Positions 33,016-35,149 of a stretch of 64,000 bases of DNA are shown here, one piece after another. The notes beneath the pieces are model-generated. The model had not been told where the DNA came from. It ran no database searches and saw only the letters and a program-made list of their open reading frames with translations. Made by a program: the position numbers and the translations under genes. This stretch comes from Natrialba chahannaoensis JCM 10990 (GTDB taxonomy: Archaea > Halobacteriota > Halobacteria > Halobacteriales > Natrialbaceae), in NCBI RefSeq assembly GCF_000337135.1, contig NZ_AOIN01000035.1, positions 64,775 to 128,774 of the forward strand, given 5' to 3'. The number at the start of each line of letters is the position of its first letter. The first letter of the stretch is position 1.

Positions 33016-33402
33016 ATGACAGCACCGAACCTCAACCGACGCCGCTTTACGAAGCTCGCTGGTGTCGGTATGATCGCGGCCGTCGCGGGTTGTATGGACG
33101 ATGAAGAGGACGATGAGCTCGGCGACGACGATGGCGACATCGGGGCCGATGATGACGGTACGGGTGATGACAGTGACCCAGGTGACGATGATATGGGCAA
33201 TGACGATGATGATGAGGATGCAAACGGTGACGAAGACGACGAGCTAGAAAACGGTGATGCTGACGATGAGAACGGAGTTGGTAACGAAGATGAAGATGGT
33301 GATGACGTGGACGGAGATGAGGATGCGGATGCCGATGCCGGTGACGATGATATCGGTGACGACGAAGACGATGCAGACCCCGACGCGGACAACGGTGCGT
33401 AA
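33016..33402 (+). CDS. Hyperacidic Tat lipoprotein
   Basis: The protein has 128 residues. MTAPNLNRRRFTKLAGVGM then AAVAGC form a twin-arginine signal with lipobox at C26. The rest is almost entirely Asp, Glu, Gly and Asn in DDD/GDD-type repeats, with no hydrophobic core, so it should be disordered and highly charged at the cell surface. It may bind cations or act as a spacer. Repeat expansion by slippage is likely. Confidence 0.75.
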   Translation: MTAPNLNRRRFTKLAGVGMIAAVAGCMDDEEDDELGDDDGDIGADDDGTGDDSDPGDDDMGNDDDDEDANGDEDDELENGDADDENGVGNEDEDGDDVDGDEDADADAGDDDIGDDEDDADPDADNGA

Positions 33403-33476
33403 TCACGTCTGACGAACACGCGAGATATCGATTTTTTCTGCGGACGGACTCGGTCACGGGACCAGTCAGTCAAAGG

Positions 33477-33487
33477 GTATAAATTGG
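33477..33487 (+). promoter_or_regulatory. TATA-like element before tRNA-Arg
   Basis: GGTATAAATTG lies about 31-41 bases before the first base of the tRNA, suitable for an archaeal tRNA promoter. Confidence 0.5.
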
Positions 33488-33517
33488 CCTGACGAATACT
33501 CTCCAGATGACGACCAT

Positions 33518-33621
33518 GGGCACGTAGCTCAGTCTGGACAGAGCGTCGGACTTCTATCCTCGTTGCGGTTGCGACGAGGGAAGACATCCGATGGTCGTGG
33601 GTTCGAATCCCATCGTGCCCG
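33518..33621 (+). tRNA. tRNA-Arg (anticodon UCU) with intron at 33557-33585
   Basis: The acceptor strands GGGCACG and CGTGCCC pair perfectly, the D stem is GCTC/GAGC, the anticodon stem TCGGA/TCCGA, and the T arm is GTGGG-TTCGAAT-CCCAT. The anticodon loop reads C-T-TCT-A, then a 29-base intron, then A. At the junctions the bases form a canonical bulge-helix-bulge: CTTC (33551-33554) pairs with GAAG (33580-33583), with bulges TAT and ACA each cut between bases 2 and 3. The intron itself forms a 9-bp hairpin with a GGTT loop. It decodes AGA (and possibly AGG). The discriminator is G33621; CCA is not encoded. Confidence 0.95.
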
Positions 33622-34534
33622 TTACGCCAGCAAACGCTAATGAGCAGCGCACAATGCACCACGAGGGATTCGAACCAGAGAAGTGCCTTGCTCCAACAGT
33701 GGTTCGAGTCCATTCTCCCTGTCCGAAAAACATTATTTCTGACCCCTTCATCCGGAGGGTAGCGCAATGGTTGCTACCGTCCGTTATCAAAGATATCACC
33801 CTCGTCAATAGTCCGGAGTTGTTGCTCTCCACAAGCGCACGAATTACCCGGGGAAACCGGTCGGATGGACCCATCGTTAAGCAACCAGATGGTGAATGTT
33901 TGCCCACAGTTGTACACATTCCAGGGACTTTTTGTTTATCGTCGTCTGTATCTGAAGGGGTCACCTAACCAAGACTATTGTTATCGTGCAACAATTGGGT
34001 AGTCGTCTTAAGTACCTGCTCATCAGTAGCACCCTCTCTGTCACTTCAATCGGGCATTGAGCAGTCCCCTCCATAATTTGAGAACTCGACATGAAATGAG
34101 GGGGTTCGAAGTGACCCGTCTCGTTGAATCTGACGAGCGCAAACGATGCAGTTGTCGAATTACCGGTCTTTGTCGGCTCTGTTCGCACTGTATACACGCC
34201 GGCCGCTCCACTGGCAGTCGAGTACGGACAGATCTGCAGGGAGAATGCAGGGACAGTGTCCCTGCAACGCGACGAAATCTGGGTGAGCAGATTCTGGTGG
34301 AGTTGGTCTCTCAGTGGTCTGCAGGGTGCATTGGAGACCAGTTCAACCAACAGTATAAACGACCATAAACCATCCAGCTGTTCCCAACATTTGCCAACTA
34401 TTGACATAGGAATGAAACTGTCCCAATTTCCACTCGAGGTTGGGTAGCACCGTCGTGGCTGGTAACACGGGTGTTACGTGGTTGGTCCAGTGTCTCTGTA
34501 GGCTTCATATGTGCAGGTAACATAGGGAAACTAC
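33622..34534. other. Decayed intergenic stretch next to tRNA-Arg
   Basis: No intact gene is supported. At 33656-33680 the minus strand contains GGTTCGAATCCCTCGTG, like the T arm and acceptor of the neighbouring tRNA in inverted orientation. At 33696-33714 the plus strand has a T-arm-like hairpin (AGTGG-TTCGAGT-CCATT). At 33760-33781 there is a hairpin GGTAGC/GCTACC. Near 34246-34266 is a perfect 8-bp hairpin TGCAGGGA/TCCCTGCA. The open frames here look like tRNA-arm artefacts or random. A former integration site of a mobile element is plausible. Confidence 0.45.
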
Positions 34535-35149
34535 ATGAGCGACGAGTCAATTCCAGTGACGCCGGAACTGCCGGATAGTCCCGTCCACATGCAGGGCACC
34601 GATCACATCACTATCTGGGGGAGCAACGCCGAGGACACGATCGAGTTCTATCGCGATCTGCTCGGGATGCCGCTGGTGCTTCGCCAGCCGAACCTCGATG
34701 ATCCGTCCCAGACACATCTCTTCTTCGATACAGGCGACGGGCGCATCTTGACGTTCTTCGTGAGCGACGACCGTCCCTCTGCCCGCGGCCAGCGCGGCGG
34801 CGTCGGCGCGGTCCACCACCTCTGTTTCAGCGTTGATCCGGACGAGTACGAGGAGACAATGCAGGCACTCGAGGACGCCGGCTACCAGTACAACATCTTC
34901 GACCGGGGTATCTTCCACTCGATCTACACGCGAGACAACAACGGCCTCGTCATCGAACTCTCAGCCGACAAGTACGAAATTCCGAACGACCGCCGGGGCG
35001 AGATCCTGGCGAAAGCACAGGAGTTACGCGAGGCTGACGGGGCGGAGTACGCCAAGGACGAGCACCTCCGCGGTGCAATCGAGGAACTTGGACTCGAGGT
35101 CGTCGAGCACGAGTTGCCCGACGCGAGCGCTGGCACCGGTGGGTTGTAA
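34535..35149 (+). CDS. VOC-family (glyoxalase fold) protein, MhqO-like ring-cleaving dioxygenase family
   Basis: The protein has 204 residues. The glyoxalase/VOC pattern includes HITIWGSNAEDTIEFYRDLLG near 22-42, HLFFDTGDGRILTFFV, VHHLCFSV near 94 and the late GLVIELSADKYEI with a possible metal glutamate. H22, H95 and E145-type ligands suggest a metal site. The next gene, starting on its last base, encodes a MhqD-like esterase, the same combination as bacterial mhqO-mhqD that detoxify quinones. Substrate here is inferred from that analogy. Confidence 0.82.
   Translation: MSDESIPVTPELPDSPVHMQGTDHITIWGSNAEDTIEFYRDLLGMPLVLRQPNLDDPSQTHLFFDTGDGRILTFFVSDDRPSARGQRGGVGAVHHLCFSVDPDEYEETMQALEDAGYQYNIFDRGIFHSIYTRDNNGLVIELSADKYEIPNDRRGEILAKAQELREADGAEYAKDEHLRGAIEELGLEVVEHELPDASAGTGGL

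Follow-up and report, generated by a model that had tools for sequence, protein, structure and literature searches.

A bulge-helix-bulge intron in the tRNA-Arg(UCU) gene of Natrialba chahannaoensis and its scattered occurrence among haloarchaea

The tRNA-Arg(UCU) gene of Natrialba chahannaoensis JCM 10990 is interrupted at its anticodon loop. The locus raises two questions: is the insertion an intron that archaeal proteins would splice, and is such an intron out of the ordinary in haloarchaea? A first reading, made from the letters alone (the sequence-only reading), had proposed an intron with a perfect bulge-helix-bulge (BHB) and had thought it unusual. We followed up the gene within a 64-kb stretch of DNA (the window), in the genome it belongs to and in related genomes. 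The insertion is read as a canonical archaeal protein-spliced (BHB) tRNA intron; splicing is predicted, and we give the reading as a whole a probability of about 0.96.

The interrupted gene and its predicted splicing

The Rfam search found one tRNA in the window, with exactly the ends given in Table 1 (61.2 bits, E = 8.2e-11). ARAGORN reported no tRNA in the window when run without the intron option and a tRNA-Arg(TCT) with a 29-nt intron when introns were allowed. A single-copy tRNA can thus look absent from a genome, because a finder run without the intron option misses the gene. In the genome of the window (4.31 Mb, 96.8% complete) tRNA-Arg(UCU) is single: one (tct) gene occurs among 46 ARAGORN genes for 43 Rfam loci, a total that counts each of the two Asp genes a second time and takes in a call at locus L019 that looks spurious.

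Table 1. Features of the interrupted tRNA gene in the window and loci of the downstream hairpin units
Feature	Position	Strand	Basis or remark
tRNA-Arg(UCU) gene, intron included	33518..33621	+	anticodon 33553-33555; Rfam RF00005 and ARAGORN intron mode
5' exon, 39 nt	33518..33556	+	same letters as first 39 nt of the intronless G119 tRNA
Intron, 29 nt, position 37/38	33557..33585	+	missing from the G119 tRNA; ARAGORN i(41,29)
3' exon, 36 nt	33586..33621	+	same letters as last 36 nt of the G119 tRNA
Bulge-helix-bulge (BHB)	33551..33586	+	CTTC 33551-33554 / GAAG 33580-33583
BHB bulges	TAT 33555-33557, ACA 33584-33586	+	read by hand
Intron helix, 9 bp, one G-U pair, GGTT loop	33558-33566 / 33571-33579	+	read by hand
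TATA-box-like element TATAAATT upstream of the tRNA	33478..33485	+	read in the sequence; promoter role putative
Hairpin unit loci	window 33622-33725; tRNA loci of the same genome (G000) L003-L032, L244-L256; Arg(UCU) loci L033-L060, L122-L141, L075-L104		

Read by hand, the gene has an acceptor stem GGGCACG/CGTGCCC, an anticodon stem TCGGA/TCCGA and a loop CTTCTA/A interrupted by the intron; the spliced tRNA would measure 75 nt. The intronless tRNA of a member of another Natrialbaceae genus (G119) equals this spliced form letter for letter. The splice points are fixed by that identity, and together with the ARAGORN call it bears out the placement at position 37/38 in the sequence-only reading. 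At 20 parsed intronless loci of the family, the exons are the same as or similar to those of the window. The segment 33459-33513, which holds the TATA-like element, aligns at 87% with the genus members G042, G043 and G047, and the stretch with the element also lies inside the aligned flank of G044, G045 and G046. An Rfam scan of 33500-34100 at low threshold returned the tRNA and two chance-level matches only, and a repeat search of 33400-34560 gave nothing relevant. The segment 33480-33660 had no match at blastn sensitivity in plasmid and phage collections from which this genome and very near records may be excluded.

The fold of the tRNA gene and of its intron part is more than chance: z-scores of the minimum free energy are -5.03 (whole gene) and -6.31 (46-nt anticodon-stem/intron part), and none of 200 shuffles was as low. 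The word "perfect" suits the BHB as a motif and fails by energy, since the minimum-energy fold of the 46-nt piece is a shifted pairing at -26.2 kcal/mol, 3.3 kcal/mol below the BHB (-22.9 kcal/mol). We therefore compared both folds on an alignment of 49 distinct anticodon-stem/intron sequences, drawn from 59 segments (29 loci of the family and 30 loci returned for the 116 intron-matching genomes of the order described below). Under the BHB, 97.3% of cells are paired, all 49 sequences preserve the central helix and at least 48 preserve the four outer pairs of the intron helix; six pairs show changes on both sides, in 37 cells. None of 500 shuffles was as high on any of five measures of covariation, and no slid version came close. 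The weakest pairs are 18-45, broken in 11 of the 49 sequences, and 17-46, broken in six. The exon stem is uninformative because it is invariant in the alignment, and the signal comes from the intron helix. The canonical BHB and the 9-bp hairpin of the sequence-only reading are upheld both by hand reading and by this covariation. The shifted register does nearly as well (96.3% of cells paired), because most pairs are common to both folds. The decision therefore falls to the pairs in which the folds differ: two pairs found only in the shifted register break in five and three of the 49 sequences, whereas the BHB central helix pairs in all 49. The comparison thus modestly favours the BHB as the likely register.

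The genome also encodes the splicing proteins, with one match over the cut-off for the EndA splicing endonuclease (PF01974, E = 2.9e-25, 90.2 bits) and one for the RtcB ligase (PF01139, E = 5.3e-163). In the proposed pathway, precursor tRNA-Arg(UCU) would be transcribed with its intron; EndA would recognise the BHB at the anticodon-intron junction and cut within each 3-nt bulge, on the 3' side of A33556 and of C33585; and a ligase, presumably RtcB, would join the exons into a 75-nt tRNA-Arg(UCU) that reads AGA. The 29-nt intron would be released, probably as a circle. We infer cutting, ligation and circle formation from known biology. Knock-down of endA in Haloferax volcanii makes unspliced tRNA build up, as an excerpt of PMC7714728 reports. 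The euryarchaeal alpha4 and alpha2 endonucleases are described as cutting canonical BHBs only in the accessible part of a review (PMC4033280), and the strict BHB motif of the window intron would fit such cutting. Further introns in the genome lie in tRNA-Met (31 nt), tRNA-Gln(UUG) (30 nt) and tRNA-Trp (101 nt), which makes four interrupted tRNA genes and fits the two to four that PMC4307357, in its accessible text, gives for euryarchaea. The tRNA-Trp gene (G000:C46, L257:613-787, - strand) was missed by the genome-wide Rfam scan.

Occurrence and turnover of the intron

Known haloarchaeal tRNA introns offer a first comparison. In their accessible text, PMC12558985 names only Trp and Met introns for Halobacterium salinarum and PMC3119063 only the same two for Haloquadratum walsbyi; part of PMC7714728 gives three intron-bearing tRNAs for H. 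volcanii. The Trp and Met introns of these three species likewise sit at 37/38 in a BHB served by the same endonuclease family, but the window intron interrupts another isoacceptor. It is also far shorter than the haloarchaeal Trp intron, which in H. salinarum is a C/D guide (PMC12558985, same text), and it has no C and D boxes. The same isoacceptor is interrupted in Aeropyrum pernix and Sulfolobus tokodaii, for which both unspliced and spliced cDNAs are described, with the BHB stated for the former and position 37/38 for the latter (PMC4307357, in part); these hosts, however, are Crenarchaeota. A literature search with a scope short of most subscription papers, supplementary tables and GtRNAdb returned no account of a haloarchaeal tRNA-Arg(UCU) intron; one may already be published.

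Pattern searches of 392 genomes drawn from the order, made with short motifs and not whole tRNAs, found an intron-bearing tRNA-Arg(UCU) in 116 genomes and 38 of 95 genera. The introns matched are 23-45 nt long, within a pattern that admits only 15-45 nt and leaves longer ones outside. The intronless pattern occurred in 229 genomes, a count that includes some doubtful matches (the first, in G197, is unlike this tRNA, and some in families f6 and f12 have another anticodon stem). No genome had both patterns, and 47 had neither, by incompleteness, exon variants or other causes. Reversed-pattern controls were zero wherever shown. A stricter motif found 17 stretches with the intron in named records, among them Haloarcula japonica, Haloarcula sebkhae, Halorussus amylolyticus, Halorussus litoreus, Halostella pelagica, Saliphagus infecundisoli, Natrarchaeobius chitinivorans, two Haloarchaeobius and Natrialba hulunbeirensis. 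The introns of Har. japonica, Hrs. litoreus, Hst. pelagica and N. hulunbeirensis agree with that of the window in tRNA, site, BHB and approximate length, whereas the sequence of the intron helix varies. Within the Natrialbaceae, BLAST matched 124 of 125 genomes searched, at least 29 of them with a full-length intron-bearing gene, a search that a very different intron could have escaped. All introns seen share the site and the BHB, and they differ much between families.

Judged by sequence patterns, the haloarchaeal tRNA-Arg(UCU) intron is ordinary in kind. Its widespread occurrence (116 of 392 genomes) overturns the view that it is unusual, and the list of haloarchaeal introns given with that view (Trp, Met and Gln) was too short, as Arg(UCU) belongs on it too. 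Two genomes returned two intron-bearing matches each, with different introns in G164 and identical matched stretches in G152. At another locus (L045, in G112) a 6-nt tandem duplication (GGTTGC) in the intron loop gives a 35-nt intron with the BHB intact.

We mapped intron presence on a tree of SRP54, a single gene analysed by a quick method, for 99 genomes of the family, 29 of them intron-bearing. The tree leaves out 23 of the 124 SRP54-matched genomes, G118 and G014 (tRNA state unverified) and G121 (no SRP54 match at the limit used). At least 14 changes of intron state are needed, ten of them forced by well-supported branches; such counts cannot tell loss from gain. Shuffled intron labels need 25.2 changes on average, so inheritance is also present. 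Sister genomes of unlike state include G006 with and G001 without the intron (support 100), and G017 with and G015 without (support 99).

Flanks were compared for the 29 intron-bearing family loci and for 20 of the 96 other family genomes, picked by genus. In several pairs of congeners, one with and one without the intron, they are shared up to the gene: those of G002 and G004 are 86.6% identical upstream and 78.6% downstream, with no more than 1 nt between alignment and tRNA, and those of G006 and G001 are 87.5% and 87.3% identical, within 5 nt of it. In other pairs one side only or distant stretches align; among the genera of mixed state, g24 has one aligned pair, over 54 nt, and g28 none. 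Because the flanks are common right up to the tRNA, the intron appears or disappears in place in some genera. In genus g2 the three intron-bearing genomes belong to two clades that also contain intronless genomes, yet all three introns share a 31-nt form; an ancestor with the intron, followed by losses, is the simpler reading there. In genus g15, G071 carries the intron and the four other genomes of its clade lack it; G071 is also the only g15 genome at full length among the family BLAST matches listed. Gain by recombination would explain that case equally well.

The intron is probably ancient and dispensable. It sits at one site of haloarchaeal tRNA-Arg(UCU), occurs in about one third of the genomes and was probably lost in place repeatedly, with regain less likely. 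Tentatively, and with more doubt than conviction, we also suggest that a single family saw many precise removals or re-acquisitions of the same intron at its site, some of them separating sister species.

A different history would have several gains, with intron-bearing alleles spreading between species by recombination, in place of an ancestral intron with many losses; we think it unlikely. It would account for the patchiness (14 changes among 99 genomes), for G071 among its four intronless clade members and for the marked differences between the introns of different families, and mobile elements have been proposed as carriers of archaeal introns (Sugahara et al. 2012, as cited in an excerpt of PMC8371274). 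Against these points, all introns seen share one site and the BHB, the common 31-nt form across two clades of g2 is explained simply by one ancestor and losses, and flanks syntenic up to the tRNA in several genera mean that any transferred tract there was short.

Hairpin units behind tRNA genes

Directly behind many tRNA genes of the genome we observed hairpin-rich units of about 80-150 nt, each followed by a copy of the last ~22-25 nt of that same tRNA. For 18 of the 43 tRNA genes, the next 300 nt contain a stretch that agrees with the gene's last 22 nt in at least 17 positions, giving 24 units; nine of these genes reach 22 of 22, and Arg(CCU) and Val(CAC) only just pass. In the control region farther downstream (500-800 nt), all of the 42 genes tested, out of 43, stay at 15 or below. 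Regions downstream of other tRNA genes also reach 17-21 against some ends, and the cut-off of 17 of 22 alone is no proof that a copy is the gene's own, because tRNA ends resemble each other. A full 22 of 22 is reached by the gene's own downstream region only, the two identical Asp genes apart. In nearly all units the likeness ends ~22-25 nt from the 3' end, the search key being the last 22 nt. Tandem units follow the genes for Asp, iMet, Ser(CGA), Ser(UGA), His, Leu(UAG), Trp and Phe. Inside the units, an inverted copy of the T arm matches the gene's own arm at 10.2 of 13 positions on average, against 9.0 for other tRNAs, and the own arm beats every other tRNA in six of 24 units, which is only suggestive of an inverted copy of the own T arm.

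An array follows tRNA-Phe (G000:C8:142143-143981; L015, L258), with four copies of the 3' end (16, 20, 22 and 16 of 22) in 1.84 kb. Small genes seem to lie in one of the intervals, which spans 1456 nt; the remaining ones span 77-126 nt. No copy at 16 or more was found in the 1493 nt upstream of the gene. Further hairpin units lie behind tRNA-Trp; of the first two, one ends in a copy of this tRNA's 3' end and the other in a near-copy. The hairpin core GCGAACAAATTCGTGAGC, with up to three mismatches, has 14 matches in the genome, and the reversed control has 1 + 1. Seven matches stand no more than about 200 nt downstream of a tRNA from the genome-wide Rfam scan, two behind tRNA-Trp and two in or just beyond the tRNA-Phe array; three are unplaced.

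The tRNA-Arg(UCU) loci of relatives show similar structures. Our first search for 3'-end copies was void: its 23-nt pattern demanded GGGTTC, the second copies have GTGGTTC or GCGGTTC, and only G024 had two. With a looser pattern, near-exact second copies appeared in 22 of 79 tRNA-Arg(UCU) loci of the order, four of them among the 30 intron-bearing loci from other families. In G044, G045, G042 and G047 the tRNA is followed by ~90-100 nt and then by a second 3'-end copy. In G046 and G043 it runs directly into TGCGAAA(A/C)CTATC, which closely resembles the stretch beyond the second copy in G044, G042 and G047; in G045 that stretch differs. Filled and empty sites thus occur within one genus. The unit of the window itself is decayed, its second copy (13 of 22) is not above chance, and it was recognised only via G044 (76% over 93 nt, E = 7e-12).

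The units resemble small non-autonomous elements that have inserted at the 3' ends of tRNAs, in a layout like that of integron cassettes. Prophage-size versions are known (PMC3119063, in part), and partial tRNAs directly adjacent to full copies are described for Haloferax in an excerpt of PMC7921747. A literature search aimed at short units found no description of them. These units may be worth more than the intron.

Possible roles of the intron and its meaning

C/D guide introns such as that of haloarchaeal tRNA-Trp carry a C box (RTGATGA) and a D box (CTGA). A guide of this class was rejected for the intron of the window, which at 29 nt is too short and holds neither box. Group I and group II introns have a ribozyme core of hundreds of nucleotides; a self-splicing intron was rejected on the same length and on the Rfam gathering scan of the window, which returned the tRNA only. 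No function of the intron itself is evident, and we take it to be dispensable. In H. volcanii it is possible to delete the intron of tRNA-Trp (Joardar et al. 2008, as cited in the accessible part of PMC4090602).

The intron could also have been kept as a shield of the tRNA gene against mobile elements that integrate at tRNA genes, an idea reviewed in PMC4090602 (in part). The accessible text of PMC8371274 counts tRNA-Arg(TCT) among the three most used archaeal integration sites. We consider this reading very improbable. Short inserts with a tRNA 3'-end copy lie behind 11 of 29 intron-bearing family loci (for one of the 29, L056, the downstream sequence ends after 25 nt) and behind seven of 20 intronless ones, so the intron does not keep short inserts out; in the genome of the window the duplicated stretch of ~22-25 nt also stops short of position 37/38. 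A pseudogene, or a hairpin that arose by chance in place of a spliced intron, is scarcely credible: ARAGORN without introns does miss the gene, but it is the only tRNA-Arg(UCU) found in a 96.8% complete genome, scores 61.2 bits as a tRNA, has exons identical to an intronless gene and shows covariation in the alignment.

A canonical, protein-spliced intron thus remains our reading of the insertion. Its patchy presence supplies ready-made pairs of genomes (such as G006/G001 and G017/G015) for questions of intron loss and gain. If the same intron has indeed been removed or re-acquired in place many times, an active route would be needed, for instance recombination in which a spliced tRNA copy or a short imported allele serves as partner, and haloarchaeal tRNA-Arg(UCU) would be a natural laboratory for the turnover of tRNA introns.
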